Below are positions 34,337 through 41,162 of a DNA stretch of 64,000 bases, in pieces. Origin of the DNA: Robiginitalea sediminis (GTDB lineage: Bacteria; Bacteroidota; Bacteroidia; Flavobacteriales; Flavobacteriaceae); NCBI RefSeq assembly GCF_002198115.1, contig NZ_NGNR01000001.1:248001-312000 (forward strand), read 5' to 3'. A program made the translations under genes and the position numbers. The notes below the pieces were generated by a model. The model saw only the letters and a list, made by a program, of their open reading frames with translations. It was not told where the DNA came from and searched no databases. How positions within the stretch are numbered: the stretch's first letter is position 1; each line of letters opens with the position of its first letter.

Positions 34337-34375
34337 GGCAATTTTTGCACATTTTTGTGGTACACGCCTCTTGTT

Positions 34376-34819
34376 ATGAAGGGATTAAGAATGCTTATTG
34401 TGGGCCTGGGCCTGCTCGCGCCGATGGCGTGCAGCAACGACCCTTCCAACCGGAACCCCTACCTGCAGGAAATTGGTTTCCGCTTCGACATCAACCTGAA
34501 CCTGCCCCTGTACAGCCCCCTGAACTTTATCAGTAATTCGGTTTACGTGAACAGTTCGGGTTCCGGGATCCGCGGTTTTTTCATCACCAATACCGGGACG
34601 GGCTTCCGCGCCTTCGAAGCCAGCTGCCCCAACCATCCGCCCAATAGCTGTTCCACTATGGAAATGGAGGGGCAACTGGCCCGATGCGCCTGCGAGGGAT
34701 ACGAATACAGCCTCTTTACCGGGCAATTGCTCAACCGGCCAAACGACGGGGAGCGTTACTTCGACATGCTGGAATACCGGGCTTCCCAAAACGGAAACGT
34801 GATTACCGTATCCAATTGA
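34376..34819 (+). CDS. Rieske-fold-like lipoprotein with altered ligands
   Basis: 147 residues. N-terminal signal with a possible lipobox (LAPMAC-SND), then a small domain in which ASCPNHPP and RCACEGYEYSLFTGQ resemble the two cluster-binding loops of Rieske proteins. The second loop lacks the usual histidine (CACEG where CPCHG is expected), so a normal 2Fe-2S Rieske cluster is doubtful. Function unknown. Start at 34376 (MKGLRMLIV). Convergent with the TonB-dependent receptor gene. Confidence 0.7.
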   Translation: MKGLRMLIVGLGLLAPMACSNDPSNRNPYLQEIGFRFDINLNLPLYSPLNFISNSVYVNSSGSGIRGFFITNTGTGFRAFEASCPNHPPNSCSTMEMEGQLARCACEGYEYSLFTGQLLNRPNDGERYFDMLEYRASQNGNVITVSN

Positions 34820-34832
34820 CGCTCCCTTTCCC

Positions 34833-37067
34833 TTAAAAGGTGAAGGTGGCCCCGGCCAGGAAATGGATGCCGGCCTGCGGGTAATACCCCACCCCCTCCA
34901 CGGTAGTAATAACCCCCGGGTTGGAGAAATCATCGTCGAAGGTATAGAAATAACCATTGGAACTATACAGGGCGTCAAATAGGTTATTCACCAGCAGATT
35001 GAGCTCTGTACGCGGCCACCAGCCCCTGGCCGGCAGGGTGTACTGCAGGTTCAGGTCCGTTTGCCAATAGGCCTCCAGCCGGGATAATTCCGCCTCGATA
35101 TTGCTCATGTACTGCGCGCCCACATACTTGGTTAGCAGGGCTGCCTGCAGGGATTCCGTGGGCCGGTATACCAGCCGGCTTGCCCCAACAACCCCGGGGG
35201 AATAGGCGATCTCTGTATTGCCGAGATTCCGGAGTTCCCCGTCGCGCCGGAAGAAAAAATCCACGTTTCGGTTGATGCTCAGGGAAAGGTTGGGCTGCCA
35301 GTACCACCGGTTCGTCAGTTTCACGCTGGCATCCAGTTCCAGACCCGTGCGGAAGGAATCGCCCACATTGGCGCGCAGGGGTGCCCCCACGTCGTTTAAC
35401 TCCCCGGTAAGGACCAACTGGTCCTTATACCTCATATAGTAAAGGTTGGCGTTAAAGGAAACCCCGGGGCGCTGCAGGCGCCAGCCCAGTTCGAAATCGT
35501 GCAACCGCTCCGGGCGGGGGTTGCCGTTTTCATAGTCGTTCCGGTTGGGTTCCCGGTTGGCGACCGCATAGGAGAAATAGAGGTTCTGACCCGGGTCCAG
35601 GGTATAGGTGATCCCCGCCTTGGGGTTGAAAAAACGAAAGCGGTCGTCTACCAGGCCGGTCTCCCGCCCATTGGCCTGGTACCGGACGCCACGGTACTGC
35701 AAATCCGCAAAAAGCCGCCAGTTGTCGCCCCACTGGTAGTCGGCCTTCAGGAAAAGGTTCCCGTCATCCTTGGTGGAATCGTCTTCATAGTAGCGGTCTC
35801 CCCGCTCCAGGCCAGGGGCGTAGCGCGCCCATATCACTTCCCCGAAATGGTCACCCCGGTAGGTATTCCATCCTCCCCCGAGGGTCAGGCCCAACTTGTT
35901 CTTCTGGTACTGGGCCGAAAATACGGTCCCGTAAAAATCGTTATCCAGCCAGCGCCGGCGGATGTAATCCGTGGAACTCCGCTCCTGCCCGTCTACCACC
36001 ACCGGGTCCTGGCCCAGGAAGGACAACTGTGAATCCGGGGCAAAGAAGACATTGGTGTAATACCAGTCGTCTACGTACTCCTCAAAAAAGCCCCGGCCGC
36101 GGGTGTAATGTACCGCAATATTGGTCCTCAGGTCTGCAGACCAGCCCTCGCTCCAGTGCAACTGGAAATGGTCCTGTTTGTAATTGTCGACCTGGTTTTC
36201 GTAAAAGCCTTCGAAAGTGCCATTGTCGTCGAACTGGATTCCGGCCACGTTATACCTCCGGTTGGTCTCCAGGTTGGCATCCACCCCTATGGCGCCAAGG
36301 ATGGCCGGGTCGAAGCCATACCAGGACTGGTAGGTGATTTCATGGCCCCCGAATAGCAGGGCCTTTACCAGGGTATTCCCATCCCGATATGCCCCCTGCA
36401 GGAAATAGGAATCCAGGTCCGAAGACGCCCGGTCTATATACCCGTCCGAGGCGATACGCGAAAGTCGCCCGCTCAGTTCAAACCCGTCGCCCATGAGGCC
36501 CGTACTAAACTTAAGGGTGGCTTTGTGGGTAGCGAAACTTCCCGCACTGGCTGCAAGTTCGGCAAAGGCTTCCTCCGATACAGCGTCGGTGAGCAGGTTA
36601 AGGCTGGCTCCGAAGGCGCCGGCGCCGTTTGTGGATGTCCCCACCCCCCGCTGCAGCTGCAGGCTCTGGGTGGAGGAGGCAAAATCCGGCATATTGACCC
36701 AGAAAGTCCCCTGGGACTCGGCATCGTTATACGGGATGCCGTTAATGGTTACGTTGACCCGGGTAGCGTCGCTCCCGCGGACACGGATACCGGTATATCC
36801 GATCCCCGCCCCGGCATCGGAGGTAGTGACCACCGACGGCATGAAATTCATGAGGATGGGGATGTCCTGCCCGAGGTTCCTGCTGCGGACCCGTTCGGCT
36901 TTGAGGTTGCTGAAACTAACCGGGGTTTGTTGCCCGGCGCGCAGAGCAGACACCAGGACCTCATCGAGGCGGATTTCATCTGCGGTTGTACTGTCCTGCG
37001 GTTGGTCCTGGGCTTGTAGTTGCAAAGCCAGCCCAAGAATGGCTACTGTAGAATAGATGCGTTTCAT
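34833..37067 (-). CDS. TonB-dependent receptor, probable thiamine uptake
   Basis: 744-residue outer-membrane transporter: signal peptide (TVAILGLALQLQAQ), a TonB box-like EIRLDEVLVSALRA, plug domain (GIRVRGSDATRVNVTINGIP; LQLQRGVGTSTNGAGAFGAS) and a 22-strand barrel ending in the aromatic AGATFTF. No carboxypeptidase-like N-terminal repeat, so not SusC-type. Substrate is inferred from the TPP riboswitch in its leader and from thiamine-related genes upstream: thiamine or its phosphates. A start-codon hairpin may add translational control. Confidence 0.9.
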   Translation of the reverse strand: MKRIYSTVAILGLALQLQAQDQPQDSTTADEIRLDEVLVSALRAGQQTPVSFSNLKAERVRSRNLGQDIPILMNFMPSVVTTSDAGAGIGYTGIRVRGSDATRVNVTINGIPYNDAESQGTFWVNMPDFASSTQSLQLQRGVGTSTNGAGAFGASLNLLTDAVSEEAFAELAASAGSFATHKATLKFSTGLMGDGFELSGRLSRIASDGYIDRASSDLDSYFLQGAYRDGNTLVKALLFGGHEITYQSWYGFDPAILGAIGVDANLETNRRYNVAGIQFDDNGTFEGFYENQVDNYKQDHFQLHWSEGWSADLRTNIAVHYTRGRGFFEEYVDDWYYTNVFFAPDSQLSFLGQDPVVVDGQERSSTDYIRRRWLDNDFYGTVFSAQYQKNKLGLTLGGGWNTYRGDHFGEVIWARYAPGLERGDRYYEDDSTKDDGNLFLKADYQWGDNWRLFADLQYRGVRYQANGRETGLVDDRFRFFNPKAGITYTLDPGQNLYFSYAVANREPNRNDYENGNPRPERLHDFELGWRLQRPGVSFNANLYYMRYKDQLVLTGELNDVGAPLRANVGDSFRTGLELDASVKLTNRWYWQPNLSLSINRNVDFFFRRDGELRNLGNTEIAYSPGVVGASRLVYRPTESLQAALLTKYVGAQYMSNIEAELSRLEAYWQTDLNLQYTLPARGWWPRTELNLLVNNLFDALYSSNGYFYTFDDDFSNPGVITTVEGVGYYPQAGIHFLAGATFTF

Positions 37068-37086
37068 TCGTAAATAGATTACGAAT
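37066..37086 (-). promoter_or_regulatory. Hairpin at the receptor start codon
   Basis: Perfect eight-base inverted repeat ATTCGTAA/TTACGAAT with a five-base loop. In the mRNA its 3' arm ends on the first two bases of the ATG, so it could hide the start codon and be the output stage of the riboswitch. Confidence 0.5.
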
Positions 37087-37216
37087 AAAAGGGGTCATTA
37101 TTCTGGTTACACTTGATTTTTGCGGCCCTTTGCCACTTGGTTTGGAAGAAGTCTGCGGCCCAGCGCCGACGGCCTCCTTTTCCGATTGCCTGCGCCTGAC
37201 GCAGGTCCTATCCGGA

Positions 37217-37316
37217 CTTCCCTTGGCAGCATTACCTGCCCAGGTTCATCGGGTATAATCTCAGCCCCGCAAAACCAAGCCGCCACAGCGGCTTTCCAAT
37301 GCGAAGCACCCCTTAT
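37217..37316 (-). promoter_or_regulatory. TPP riboswitch (THI element)
   Basis: Minus-strand reading shows the conserved thi-box blocks in order: AAGGGGTGC, a P3 side hairpin (AAGCCGC/GCGGCTT), GGGGCTGAGATTATACCC, GATGAACCTGGGCAGGTAAT and GCTGCCAAGGGAAG. CTGAGA, ACCC, GAACCTG and the closing AGGGAA match the TPP aptamer consensus. It lies 149 bases before the TonB-dependent receptor and 10 bases after a -7 box. Binding of TPP is expected to lower receptor synthesis. Confidence 0.95.
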
Positions 37317-37325
37317 GAGACAGGG

Positions 37326-37333
37326 CAAAGATA
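37326..37333 (-). promoter_or_regulatory. -7 element TATCTTTG for the riboswitch transcript
   Basis: Perfect TAnnTTTG, 10 bases before the aptamer, so transcription should start almost at the riboswitch. No clear -33 element. Confidence 0.65.
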
Positions 37334-37517
37334 GGGAGGAAATTAAAATTACGCCATAAAATCCCCGCACAAAAGCGCAGCCAAAACAGAGCAAAACAAA
37401 GACGGTAGTTTATGTGCCAATCAGCGTTCCGCGCTTTTAGTCACAAGGCACATAAGTAGGTCACTTCTGCCCTCCGGGATGTGGGAACAGTATCCGGTAG
37501 ACATTGCGGAAAGGGCG

Positions 37518-39620
37518 TCAGGGTTTACCGCTGTGGGCCGGTTTCAGCAGGTCGTTTACGGTCTTAACCGGGTTGAAGGTACTGACCGGGACTTCCACAA
37601 AGAGCGTGTTCCAGAATGCCATGGCCCCGTTCCAAAGCCCGGGGAGTTCCAGCGCTTTAAGGGGCCTTCCTTCATAGGTCTTCCCCGTAATGAAACCCTG
37701 TTTGGTGTCGATGTAGTTCATCAGGTTGAACTTACGCCCGTAGGCATCGCGGACCCCGCAAACCAGGTCTACCGGGTTAAAGTGGGTGGATTCCCTGAAA
37801 ATCCGTTCCTGGGCAGGATCCGAAAGGTCTGCCTGAGCCGATTCCACAATCTGCAGGGACTCGTTCCCGGAAGCGTCGGTAATCCAGAACGGGCCTCCCC
37901 CGGGCTCCCCTTCGTTTTTAACCATCCCGCAAACGCGGATAGGGCGGTCGAGCTTGTCCTTGAGGACCGCTACCTGGTCGTCTATACTCAGACTGTCGTA
38001 TGAAGGTTGGAAGCGCACATTGAGTTTTTCCTGAAGGAAGGTGCGGACCCTGACCAGCAAGTCGTGGTCCAGGCTCCCCTCCTGCAGCATGCGGGAGTAG
38101 CGGAATGCTTCCTCCTGAACTTCGAGGAGCACCCCTCCCAGGATTTCCTTCCAACGGGAAACCTCCTCCAGGGAACCGCGGGTAACCACATTGTCGATAT
38201 TCTTGATAAAAAGGATGTCGGCATCCTGCTCGTTCAGGTTCTCAATGAGGGCGCCATGCCCCCCCGGCCGGAAGAGCAGCTGGCCGTCGTTATCCCTGAA
38301 AGGCTCGTTCTCCGGGGTAACCGCCAGGGTGTCGGTGGACGGTTTCTGGAAGGAGAACCCCACCCGGAACCGGCAGCCCGTTGCCTTCCCGGTGCTGTCC
38401 TTAACCCGTTCGAATTCCTCCCGGAAGAGTTCCTGGTGCTGGGGGGAAATCGTAAAGTGCAGGCGGGCTTCATCTTCGCCTGCCGCATAAGCCGCCCCCT
38501 CAAAGAGGTGTTCCTCAAAAGGGGTAGCCAGGTGGTCTCCATACCTGTGGAAGGGCAGAAGTCCCTTGGGATAAAACCCGTAATTGAGGCCGTCCTCAGA
38601 AAGGAGCTCCTCCACAAAACGATACAGCACGTGGCCCTCCGGCAGGTCCTTGCCCCCAATGCGCCCCATGACCAACTCGTAAAAGGAGAACTCCTGCAAT
38701 CGGGAGTGGAACGCCTTTATGGAAGCGTTTTCCGGGTCTTGCAAGTAGGTCTCCAGGGTGACCCGACCCGGGTCGAAATGCTCCAGGAAATGGAACAGGG
38801 CCTTAAACATGCGGGATGCCGCCCCGGATGCCGGGATGAACTTCACCACCTGTTTCCCTGTCCTGGCCTCCCGGTAGCGCTTCAGGTAATGGTCCTGCAG
38901 GCCGGGGTCCAGACGCAGGATGCCATCGGTTACCACCGCGGCTTTGCTCAGGTGGACATGGGGGATTCCCTCCCGGAACGTCTCCACCTGGTCCTGTATT
39001 TTTTCCGGGGACATCCCCCGTGCTTCCATAAACCTCAGATCTTCGGTGCTAAACATGCTCATTGCTAATAGGTTGTCTATGTGCCGGACGGCTTTTTGGA
39101 GCCGCTCCTCCCGGCTACCGCTTAAAATTACGAATCTGCGACCAGTTTTAAGGAGGGCCTCCCGGAAATAGGCAAACATCTCTTCCCGCTGTTCCGGGCG
39201 GTCCCGCAGGTCGTCTGCTACCCAGGGTACGTCAATATCGGTCAGCAGGTAGAGGTCGTAGGTGTTCTCCAGGGCATGGTACTCCAGCACGGGGTCCACA
39301 AAGCCCTGGTAATAGGCTTCCGAATACACCTTGGTTACCAACAGGTCCGTATCGCAGATCAGGACCCGGTTGGCCCGTGCGGCGAGCAGGTTCTCCTGCT
39401 GCATTTGGCCCCGGGCTATGGGCAGCAGGTCTTCGGGCTGGCAGACCAGGCCTTCCCTGTCCCATTTTTCCTGCAGGTATTCCCGGGCGTATTCCGGCAC
39501 CCAAAGGGTTTGGTAATGGGCCGCCAGATCTGCTGCCAGGGTAGACTTCCCAGTAGATTCAGGGCCGAAAAGCACCACCTTCAGGAGGTCTGAAGGCTGT
39601 TGTTTAAGAGCTTCTTCCAT
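37518..39620 (-). CDS. NadR-like P-loop kinase fused to DUF4301
   Basis: 700 residues in one frame. Residues 1-185 are a NadR-type AAA/kinase domain: Walker A GPESTGKSTLA (about 19-29), VPEYAREYL, CDTDLLVTKVYSEAYYQ and DIDVPWVADDLRDRPEQR. From residue 187 (MSMFSTEDLRFMEARG) it is a complete DUF4301 protein, with KFIPASGAASRMFKALFHFL, GKDLPEGHVLYRFVE, RPGGHGALIENLNE and FIKNIDNVVTRGSLEE (nucleotidyl/sugar-transferase-like loops). I recall these as separate genes elsewhere; here DUF4301's natural start is in frame with no stop between. Context suggests the kinase part phosphorylates thiamine or nicotinamide riboside. Start at 39620 (MEEALKQQ), overlapping the transporter gene by 40 bases. Confidence 0.85.
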   Translation of the reverse strand: MEEALKQQPSDLLKVVLFGPESTGKSTLAADLAAHYQTLWVPEYAREYLQEKWDREGLVCQPEDLLPIARGQMQQENLLAARANRVLICDTDLLVTKVYSEAYYQGFVDPVLEYHALENTYDLYLLTDIDVPWVADDLRDRPEQREEMFAYFREALLKTGRRFVILSGSREERLQKAVRHIDNLLAMSMFSTEDLRFMEARGMSPEKIQDQVETFREGIPHVHLSKAAVVTDGILRLDPGLQDHYLKRYREARTGKQVVKFIPASGAASRMFKALFHFLEHFDPGRVTLETYLQDPENASIKAFHSRLQEFSFYELVMGRIGGKDLPEGHVLYRFVEELLSEDGLNYGFYPKGLLPFHRYGDHLATPFEEHLFEGAAYAAGEDEARLHFTISPQHQELFREEFERVKDSTGKATGCRFRVGFSFQKPSTDTLAVTPENEPFRDNDGQLLFRPGGHGALIENLNEQDADILFIKNIDNVVTRGSLEEVSRWKEILGGVLLEVQEEAFRYSRMLQEGSLDHDLLVRVRTFLQEKLNVRFQPSYDSLSIDDQVAVLKDKLDRPIRVCGMVKNEGEPGGGPFWITDASGNESLQIVESAQADLSDPAQERIFRESTHFNPVDLVCGVRDAYGRKFNLMNYIDTKQGFITGKTYEGRPLKALELPGLWNGAMAFWNTLFVEVPVSTFNPVKTVNDLLKPAHSGKP

Positions 39621-40213
39621 GCGAAGTATCCTTGAATGGCCAGGATGGTGAATATCAGGTATTGCAGGGAAAGCATCCCCCACCCCCTGTAGGCGTACAG
39701 GGGTACGGTAATTACGTCTGCCAGAATCCACAGGGTCCAGTTCTCGATTTTCTTAGTTGCCATATACCACATGGCCGTAAAAAAGATCCCGGAAGTGACC
39801 ATATCGGTGTAGTTGGTCCAGTCGGTTTGCGTCCCAAAAGCCCGGTAAACCCCATAAGTTACCGCCACGGTAAGGAGGAACAACAGTACCCCAATGCCCT
39901 TCTCCCTCCTGTTGGTGCGGGAGACACGCACCACGGGCGCCCCTTCCCTACGCCGCGACCAGTTCCACCACCCGTAGATGCTCATGAGGGAATAATACAG
40001 GTTGAGCATCATATCGCCCAGGAGTTCGTCACGGAGAAAAATATACATGGTGATCACCGTGGCAATAAGCCCGGTGGGATACACCCAGATATGCTCCCTC
40101 TTGGCGTAGACCACACTGGCTATCCCAAAAACAAAGGCAATAGCTTCCAGGGCTATTAGCGCGGCAGGGCGGTCCCGGTACGGGTCCAGGAAAAAATCAA
40201 AAATGGGGCTCAT
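39581..40213 (-). CDS. pnuT: PnuC/PnuT-family vitamin transporter
   Basis: 210 residues, about seven membrane helices, with the family pattern (YPTGLIATVITMYIFLRDEL, MLNLYYSLMSIYGWWNWSRR, and NWTLWILADVITVPLYAYRG). PnuC members carry nicotinamide riboside and PnuT members thiamine by facilitated diffusion, followed by intracellular phosphorylation. The DUF77 thiamine-binding gene overlapping upstream and the TPP riboswitch downstream favour thiamine. The partner kinase follows with a 40-base overlap. Confidence 0.88.
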   Translation of the reverse strand: MSPIFDFFLDPYRDRPAALIALEAIAFVFGIASVVYAKREHIWVYPTGLIATVITMYIFLRDELLGDMMLNLYYSLMSIYGWWNWSRRREGAPVVRVSRTNRREKGIGVLLFLLTVAVTYGVYRAFGTQTDWTNYTDMVTSGIFFTAMWYMATKKIENWTLWILADVITVPLYAYRGWGMLSLQYLIFTILAIQGYFAWKKLLNNSLQTS

Positions 40214-40457
40214 AGTCGCTGCGGTCCGTTTTGACCAGCTTAATAAAGAATACCGCCTGGCCCACCGCCTGCAAGCTGCGCTCCATCTCGTCCTGCAGTA
40301 GCTGCATCACCTCCCGGTACTCCCCGAATACCTGGGTGCTCATGGGGTTCTCCAAAACCGTAAGGCCCGATGCGCGCAGGGCTTTGATAAAGCGGATGAT
40401 TTCGGGTTCATACTGGTCCTGCAGGGGGCTGAGGGTGAGTTCTACGGATACCTTCAT
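40197..40457 (-). CDS. Thiamine-binding DUF77/YqgV-type protein
   Basis: 86 residues of the MTH1187/YkoF-like thiamine-binding family: MKVSVELTLSPLQDQYEPEI, FIKALRASGLTVLENPMSTQ and FGEYREVMQLLQDEM. These small ferredoxin-like-fold proteins bind thiamine in the cytosol. First gene of the operon with the transporter and kinase fusion, with which it overlaps by 17 bases. Confidence 0.87.
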   Translation of the reverse strand: MKVSVELTLSPLQDQYEPEIIRFIKALRASGLTVLENPMSTQVFGEYREVMQLLQDEMERSLQAVGQAVFFIKLVKTDRSDYEPHF

Positions 40458-40476
40458 CGGGGTTCATTTAGATGCC

Positions 40477-40484
40477 CAAAGGTA
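40477..40484 (-). promoter_or_regulatory. Promoter of the DUF77-transporter-kinase operon
   Basis: Perfect -7 box TACCTTTG with a TTG at 40505-40507 exactly 20 bases upstream, the best full promoter in the window. The leader is only about 15-20 bases, so no riboswitch fits in front of this operon. Confidence 0.75.
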
Positions 40485-40529
40485 GGCAGTAATGGGTTTT
40501 CGGCCAATACGGCACGGGCCCTTTGCCGC

Positions 40530-41162
40530 CTATTGCCGGATGGCGTAGGCACAGGTATACCCTTCGAATTCCAGGAAGTAGGTGCGAAAATCGGCCCGCA
40601 TGCCCTGATAGAGGGCCGTCCCGGTGCTCTGCCCGGAATCCATATCGAAATCGTCTATGTCTATATGGTTGAGGAAACTCAGCCCGGGGGTTGAAAGCAC
40701 TTTGTAAATGGACTCCTTGGCCCCCCACACCATGGTGAGCTTGCGGATAATGGCCTCGTCGTTGGCCAGGGAGCGGTATTCCCGAAGCGGGGTAAACTTA
40801 TGCGCTATGCGGAGTATCTTGTCCCGTTGCATCTCGATATCGATGCCCACCTCGGCCTCCTTCGATACGATAATCCCTGAAAACCCGAAGGAATGGGTAA
40901 TGGAGATGGAACACCCGTCGGCCAGGTGCGGTTTTCCGGCAGCGTCGTAGGTGAGATCGAAATCCGTATACCCGGCCTCGGCCAGTAAGTGGCGGATACT
41001 CAAAAAACCCCTGCGGTGGATTTCAGAACGCATGCCCTCCAGGCGCTCCGTACATTGTGGGCGGAGGGCTATCCCATGGGCCAGCGCAGCCTCCGGTTCG
41101 GTGATTTTCCAGACCAGTATTCGGCATCCCGGATGGGCTTCCAAAGACTTGAAAAGCGGCAT
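40530..41162 (-). CDS. 4'-phosphopantetheinyl transferase
   Basis: Attaches phosphopantetheine from CoA to acyl carrier proteins. 210 residues, Sfp-like size. Key blocks: SISITHSFGFSGIIVS, EVGIDIEMQRDKILRIAHKF (magnesium-binding D and E) and MVWGAKESIYKV. Probably the housekeeping enzyme for fatty acid synthesis in this lineage, since AcpS-type genes are often missing. Transcribed away from ahcY. Confidence 0.9.
   Translation of the reverse strand: MPLFKSLEAHPGCRILVWKITEPEAALAHGIALRPQCTERLEGMRSEIHRRGFLSIRHLLAEAGYTDFDLTYDAAGKPHLADGCSISITHSFGFSGIIVSKEAEVGIDIEMQRDKILRIAHKFTPLREYRSLANDEAIIRKLTMVWGAKESIYKVLSTPGLSFLNHIDIDDFDMDSGQSTGTALYQGMRADFRTYFLEFEGYTCAYAIRQ

Follow-up and report, generated by a model that had tools for sequence, protein, structure and literature searches.

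A predicted thiamine salvage locus of Robiginitalea sediminis with a NadR-type kinase and a riboswitch proposed to mask the receptor start codon

According to our analysis, positions 34833 to 40484 of a 64,000-nucleotide stretch of the Robiginitalea sediminis genome (contig NZ_NGNR01000001.1, positions 248,001 to 312,000, hereafter the window) hold, with a probability of roughly 0.7, the thiamine salvage system of an auxotroph, in which a NadR-type kinase would trap the imported vitamin and a thiamine pyrophosphate (TPP) riboswitch would act on the start codon of the receptor gene only. In the proposed route, a TonB-dependent receptor would carry thiamine across the outer membrane, a PnuT transporter would let it equilibrate across the inner membrane, a DUF77 protein would bind it, and the kinase would phosphorylate and so trap it. 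The product would most likely be thiamine monophosphate, from which ThiL, encoded elsewhere in the genome, would make TPP; the receptor alone would be under TPP control. Uptake by facilitated diffusion depends on an enzyme that traps the substrate, a role that the kinase would fill. All elements of the locus lie on the minus strand and are transcribed in the order phosphopantetheinyl transferase (PPTase), DUF77, PnuC-family transporter, kinase-DUF4301, TPP aptamer, receptor; they are listed here in that direction.

40530-41162, minus strand: PPTase, upstream of DUF77
40505-40507, minus strand: TTG, putative -33 element before DUF77 (from the sequence)
40477-40484, minus strand: TACCTTTG, -7 box (TAnnTTTG) before DUF77 (from the sequence and relatives)
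40197-40457, minus strand: DUF77/Thiamine_BP protein, 86 aa (PF01910)
39581-40213, minus strand: PnuC/PnuT-family inner-membrane transporter, 210 aa (PF04973, TIGR01528, homologue of 4QTN)
37518-39620, minus strand: fused kinase-DUF4301 open reading frame (ORF), with AAA_28 at aa 14-173 and DUF4301 at aa 192-696
39057-39620, minus strand: kinase domain (AAA_28, NadR ribosylnicotinamide-kinase-like), predicted thiamine kinase (PF13521, AlphaFold2 model, exclusion with thiamine pyrophosphokinase)
37518-39056, minus strand: fused DUF4301 domain with a UDP-sugar pyrophosphorylase-like fold (PF14134, AlphaFold2 model)
37328-37335, minus strand: TATCTTTG, -7 box of the riboswitch transcript (from the sequence; TAnnTTTG in most relatives)
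37202-37323, minus strand: TPP riboswitch aptamer with a long P3 extension (RF00059)
37308-37314, minus strand: aptamer strand AAGGGGU, part of P2 and proposed partner of the H1 loop (duplex prediction)
37083-37103, minus strand: H1 anti-sequestor hairpin, GAAUAA (37098-37103) with UUAUUC (37083-37088), loop UGACCCCUU (conserved element in leaders)
37062-37090, minus strand: S sequestor helix, UUUUAUUCGUAA (37079-37090) with UUACGAAUGAAA (37062-37073), masking the AUG (folding, pair types)
34833-37067, minus strand: TonB-dependent receptor (OMthi/Omr1-like), 744 aa (PF00593, Plug)

The argument for salvage starts from a gap in the pathway. When the whole host genome (3.3 Mb, 100% complete) was searched with profiles, no match was obtained for ThiC (PF01964), ThiE (PF02581) or thiamine pyrophosphokinase (TPK, PF04263), and ThiL was found with 289 bits, so that thiamine must come from outside and be phosphorylated by some other enzyme, and the host is a predicted thiamine auxotroph. 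An initial annotation of the window, made from its sequence and ORFs, had joined the genes of the locus into one thiamine path and had proposed this search for biosynthesis genes elsewhere in the genome as a check; the gap, together with the presence of ThiL and the conserved gene order described below, supports that view.

We looked for the enzyme filling this gap in 158 Bacteroidia genomes that were at least 95% complete, searching for the kinase with its own profile (A1) and setting long NadR-like proteins aside by length and score. The kinase was matched in 89 genomes, TPK in 29, ThiE in 56 and ThiL in 156. Among the 102 genomes without ThiE, 77 had the kinase only, 22 TPK only, three neither and none both (Fisher p 2e-19, a value that ignores shared ancestry and is indicative only); counted by family, the figures are 28 for the kinase, 11 for TPK, one for neither and none for both. 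Such mutual exclusion is expected if the two enzymes do the same job. A PnuC-family transporter is present in 55 of 60 nearer relatives, the kinase occurring in 48 of these 55 and TPK in six, with one overlap, and in seven of the 60 the kinase is not adjacent to PnuC and lies elsewhere, mostly next to the receptor, to DUF77 or to genes that usually flank the cluster. A natural swap of the kinase for TPK is seen in genome G025 (L144, 4290-8236), whose riboswitch-led operon runs TPP aptamer, receptor, PnuT, TPK, and in which no NadR-type thiamine kinase was found. Two ThiC-containing genomes without PnuC (G029 and G047) also lack the kinase, as had been predicted before the search, and five genomes carry the kinase together with a separate NadR-type protein, which in four of them adjoins its own PnuC. 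From these distributions, the AAA_28 kinase is probably a thiamine kinase that replaces TPK, and some role for it in thiamine use appears highly probable.

Several points weigh against this assignment. The exclusion follows lineages, and its p-value overstates independence; the survey took in the kinase, TPK, ThiE and ThiL, and not ThiK (aminoglycoside-kinase-like) or ThiN; and a quick tree did not cleanly separate the kinase from NadR kinase domains. ThiL is moreover kept in TPK genomes without ThiE, so that by itself it does not indicate a monophosphate product. Its use as a discriminating marker failed, the gene being near universal (156 of 158). In the genomes with TPK and without ThiE, no thiamine monophosphate would be expected for ThiL to act on.

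The other proteins of the locus, each of which the initial annotation had named along with the aptamer, were all found by profile matches, at coordinates that proved correct and that end at the DUF77 promoter. The receptor matches PF00593 (E 3.3e-26) and Plug (E 8.6e-9), the DUF77 protein matches PF01910 (Thiamine_BP; 29.3 bits against a cut-off of 24.9, E 8.5e-7), and the transporter matches PF04973 (E 8.3e-52), passes the PnuC model TIGR01528 (93.7 bits) and is homologous to the solved nicotinamide riboside (NR) transporter 4QTN, with which it shares motif columns. Sequence alone does not separate this transporter, PnuT and PnuC; its genomic link is to thiamine genes, in a conserved order with DUF77, the TPP aptamer and the receptor. 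We infer the substrates of the locus proteins from comparisons of this kind. The transporter and kinase ORFs overlap by 40 bases (39581-39620), suggesting translational coupling. A similar overlap is present in other genera (L238, L240).

The order AhcY (in the opposite orientation), PPTase, DUF77, PnuT, kinase, DUF4301, TPP aptamer, receptor, GreA, HIT is retained in about 75 loci of Flavobacteriaceae, where the aptamer stands directly before the receptor and never before DUF77-PnuT. The earlier claim that the receptor alone lies behind the riboswitch is thereby supported. In other families of Bacteroidia, the kinase usually adjoins PnuT, and the aptamer and receptor follow in many of them. 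Several loci of Allomuricauda/Flagellimonas (L061, L063, L068, L074 and similar ones) carry about 4-5 kb of inserted DNA between DUF4301 and the aptamer, which in some gives a weak histidine-kinase match, and many relatives have between PPTase and DUF77 a gene that by eye, from its C-terminal motif, resembles geranylgeranylglyceryl phosphate synthase.

Both promoters that had been proposed are present. The -7 box TATCTTTG lies directly before the aptamer, and most relatives show the -7 consensus TAnnTTTG (PMC9723704) just 5' of theirs. The DUF77 promoter reads TTG-N20-TACCTTTG, exactly as first given; TAnnTTTG occurs in the 90 nt preceding DUF77 in 35 of 93 relatives, where shuffled sequences would give an expected 4.8, and the TTG at -33 is not conserved, the pair of TTG and -7 box being found in four of the 93. 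It is also conceivable, though we consider it doubtful, that one transcript runs from PPTase onward and that read-through gives the upstream promoter a share in receptor expression beside the receptor's own promoter, as the shared direction and order of the genes and the distance of about 190 bases between the DUF4301 stop and the aptamer would allow; against such read-through stand the -7 box directly 5' of the aptamer in most relatives and the other DNA inserted before the aptamer in several.

The aptamer itself aligns to RF00059 over the full length of the model with 35.8 bits (E 2.9e-5), below the Rfam gathering score of 54.3 bits, which is a detection cut-off and not a structural feature; scanning the whole window with Rfam defaults accordingly returned nothing, and nine relatives with the same aptamer gave no gathering-level RF00059 match either. 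It is the sole RF00059 match in the host genome. The core CUGAGA ... ACCC..GAACCUG ... GGUAAUGC ... AGGGA is in place with P2, P3, P4 and P5, and the core columns show little or no variation across 20 aligned aptamers (first row the window aptamer, P3 loop shortened by hand), the model R1 having served solely for locating aptamers. By its core the sequence is a TPP riboswitch, for which TPP binding is predicted. Surveys run at the Rfam gathering score probably undercount vitamin B1 regulation in Flavobacteriaceae.

Between aptamer and receptor the leaders vary widely across relatives. Their last 40 bases before the AUG read GAAUAAU-n-ACC(C/U)CUUUU-AUUC...AUGAAA in about 60 distinct flavobacterial leaders. 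In local folding, UUUUAUUCGUAA pairs with UUACGAAUGAAA in a 12-bp helix, S, that buries the start codon, and the mean unpaired probability of the receptor AUG is 0.02, compared with 0.38-0.53 for other gene starts of the same loci. Helix S covaries, with GC, CG, UG and AU at position -3, UA, AU and GC at -4, and three to four pair types at -3, -4 and -6; pairs were counted from individual folds and not from the alignment A4, which misplaces the variable loops. Alternatively, GAAUAA pairs with UUAUUC to form the hairpin H1, which disrupts helix S; when H1 is held by hard constraints, the modelled exposure of the AUG rises from 0.02 to 0.41. The H1 loop ACCCCUUU is complementary to AAAGGGGU of the aptamer, its portion ACCCCUU matching the strand AAGGGGU, and the best duplex of that strand across the whole leader falls on the H1 element in 57 of 69 leaders. 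A second clade has lengthened both partners of the duplex, AAAAAAGGGGU with ACCUCUUUUU.

These observations make a three-helix translational OFF switch in flavobacterial TPP leaders a likely arrangement. With TPP bound, the aptamer would keep its GGGG strand in P2, helix S would form and the receptor AUG would be hidden; without TPP, AAGGGGU would pair with the ACCCCUU loop of H1, which would take UUAUUC from S and expose the AUG. Since TPP would hold the G strand in P2 and so let the masking helix win, the sign of the response would fit repression by TPP. We infer both this direction and the contact between H1 and the aptamer from the leader sequences and their modelled folds. Telling against the switch are the modest per-leader z-scores of the long-range duplex (mean -1.2), the G-richness of the AAGGGGU strand, and the finding that most other families tested lack the same start helix. 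One locus of another family (L171) retains ACCCCUUU with different stems (GCGAG/CUCGU and UGAUUAA/UUAAUCA) and an AUG unpaired probability of 0.00. A long hairpin that includes the AUG precedes a TPP-controlled receptor of a further locus from another family (L215, about 2570-2640), so that masking of the start codon may be more widespread.

A hairpin right after the aptamer occurs in many leaders with weak z-scores, and we dropped it as a consistent expression platform. That the riboswitch works on transcription, through termination or Rho, with an incidental start-codon helix, strikes us as unlikely: stable hairpins do follow the aptamer in the window, but no U-tract comes after the stable hairpin CCUGCG..CGCAGG, and the helix at the start codon is both conserved and covarying, with a 5' strand that also belongs to the element complementary to the aptamer. 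The mode of action of TPP riboswitches in Bacteroidota has been called uncertain, and the pnuT and OMthi mRNAs of B. thetaiotaomicron, which lie behind such riboswitches, respond little to thiamine (PMC5613172), which is compatible with the translational control proposed here.

As for the kinase and its product, the domain matches AAA_28 (PF13521; E 2.4e-44, aa 14-173) and falls below the NadR model TIGR01526 (110 bits against a cut-off of 341); it is a kinase domain only, without the nicotinamide mononucleotide (NMN) adenylyltransferase domain; it gave no match to the TPK family (PF04263). Its AlphaFold2 model (pLDDT 96.6) best fits the NadR kinase domain 8x7f (Z 22.6, rmsd 2.0 over 177 residues, 29% identity), followed by thymidylate and deoxynucleoside kinases at Z of about 16, which places it in the P-loop kinase fold of the NadR ribosylnicotinamide kinase superfamily. 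As NadR, thymidylate and deoxynucleoside kinases transfer one phosphate, thiamine monophosphate is favoured, and from this modelled fold we think it the likely product. Alternatively, the kinase could be a pyrophosphokinase that makes TPP directly, ThiL not being needed in the route. Its one-for-one replacement of TPK would suit such an enzyme, and the persistence of ThiL in TPK-only genomes means that the presence of ThiL is not diagnostic; the fold, known from kinases of nucleosides and nucleotides that transfer one phosphate, and the lack of any resemblance to the TPK family make direct synthesis of TPP improbable. That the transporter and the kinase form an NR uptake unit merely neighbouring a thiamine receptor, as the TIGR01528 match, the motif columns resembling 4QTN and the closeness of NadR as a kinase fold would permit, is very unlikely in view of several genomes that have the kinase by DUF77 and/or the receptor without PnuC, of TPK taking its place in the riboswitch-led operon of G025, of the exact exclusion between kinase and TPK in ThiE-less genomes, and of the four genomes that hold a separate PnuC-NadR pair besides the kinase. 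A second, distant AAA_28 protein with an FDRGIPD-like motif is encoded in most relatives (e.g., G000:C8:322145-322657, L142).

The DUF4301 domain (PF14134, E 2e-209; 696.9 bits for the fused protein against a cut-off of 27) is a passenger outside the thiamine pathway. We rejected it as a thiamine enzyme because it is not present in most kinase genomes, is free-standing elsewhere and has the shape of a UDP-sugar pyrophosphorylase. It was found in 25 of the 158 Bacteroidia genomes, and its AlphaFold2 model (pLDDT 91.4) has the UDP-glucose/UDP-GlcNAc pyrophosphorylase fold (2i5k; Z 22.3, rmsd 3.4, 322 residues aligned); the likeness is one of predicted fold, and no tie of DUF4301 to thiamine is known. 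The fusion in the window is genuine but not essential: of 124 related ORFs, 25 were scored as fusions of kinase and DUF4301, and in the others the two are separate neighbouring genes, often with an overlap of a few bases. The initial treatment of the fusion as a functional unit is not supported, the two being unfused in most relatives and DUF4301 free-standing in other families. Beyond the receptor, the plus strand of the window (34355-34819) holds a small ORF that resembles a lipoprotein gene, contains CPNH and CAC motifs, has no Pfam match and by eye looks like a Rieske protein with a changed ligand position.

Vitamin B1 supply shapes marine and gut communities. In Baltic and coastal surveys, Bacteroidetes B1 transcripts were mostly omr1 and pnuC (PMC12442306), and surveys have described Bacteroidota populations without a described B1 synthesis or transport system (PMC10881298), for which we offer as reasons that the aptamers tend to fall below the Rfam cut-off and that the likely thiamine kinase is not annotated as such. 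The type of locus is already known, whereas the kinase assignment and the architecture of the switch are new predictions; a search of the open-access literature, subscription papers lying outside it, found no paper naming an AAA_28/NadR-type thiamine kinase or describing this start-codon switch. The joint proposition, that in Bacteroidia the NadR-type P-loop kinase serves as the main thiamine kinase, replacing TPK in most auxotrophs, and that flavobacteria use the three-helix start-codon switch, we put at slightly better than even. If true, Bacteroidia thiamine auxotrophs could be recognised from their genomes, the missing thiamine-phosphorylating enzyme would gain a gene family, and the action of TPP riboswitches in a phylum where Shine-Dalgarno sequences are little used could be tested by a few point mutations.

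Among known systems, TPP riboswitches have been reported to control a TonB receptor, PnuT and Tnr3 in Bacteroides: OMthi (BT2390) and pnuT-tnr3 (BT2396-2397) of B. thetaiotaomicron likewise combine a TPP riboswitch, a TonB receptor, PnuT and a thiamine-phosphorylating enzyme in one route (PMC5613172). There, however, pnuT-tnr3 has a TPP riboswitch of its own, whereas in the window only the receptor does, and the place of Tnr3 is taken in the window by the NadR-type kinase. PnuC-NadR salvage of NR likewise pairs a Pnu transporter with a homologous trapping kinase, from which the window kinase differs in having no NMN adenylyltransferase domain and in its link to DUF77 and a TPP aptamer. E. coli ThiK (YcfN) converts thiamine to thiamine monophosphate, which then passes to ThiL, the same reaction as proposed for the window kinase, and has an aminoglycoside-phosphotransferase fold unrelated to the P-loop kinase of the window. 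Compared with RF00059 riboswitches such as the translational one of E. coli tbpA, the window aptamer has the same core but a long P3 extension, a weak P1 and no Shine-Dalgarno sequence, and in its predicted platform the AUG itself would be masked by a helix that competes with a hairpin complementary to the aptamer.

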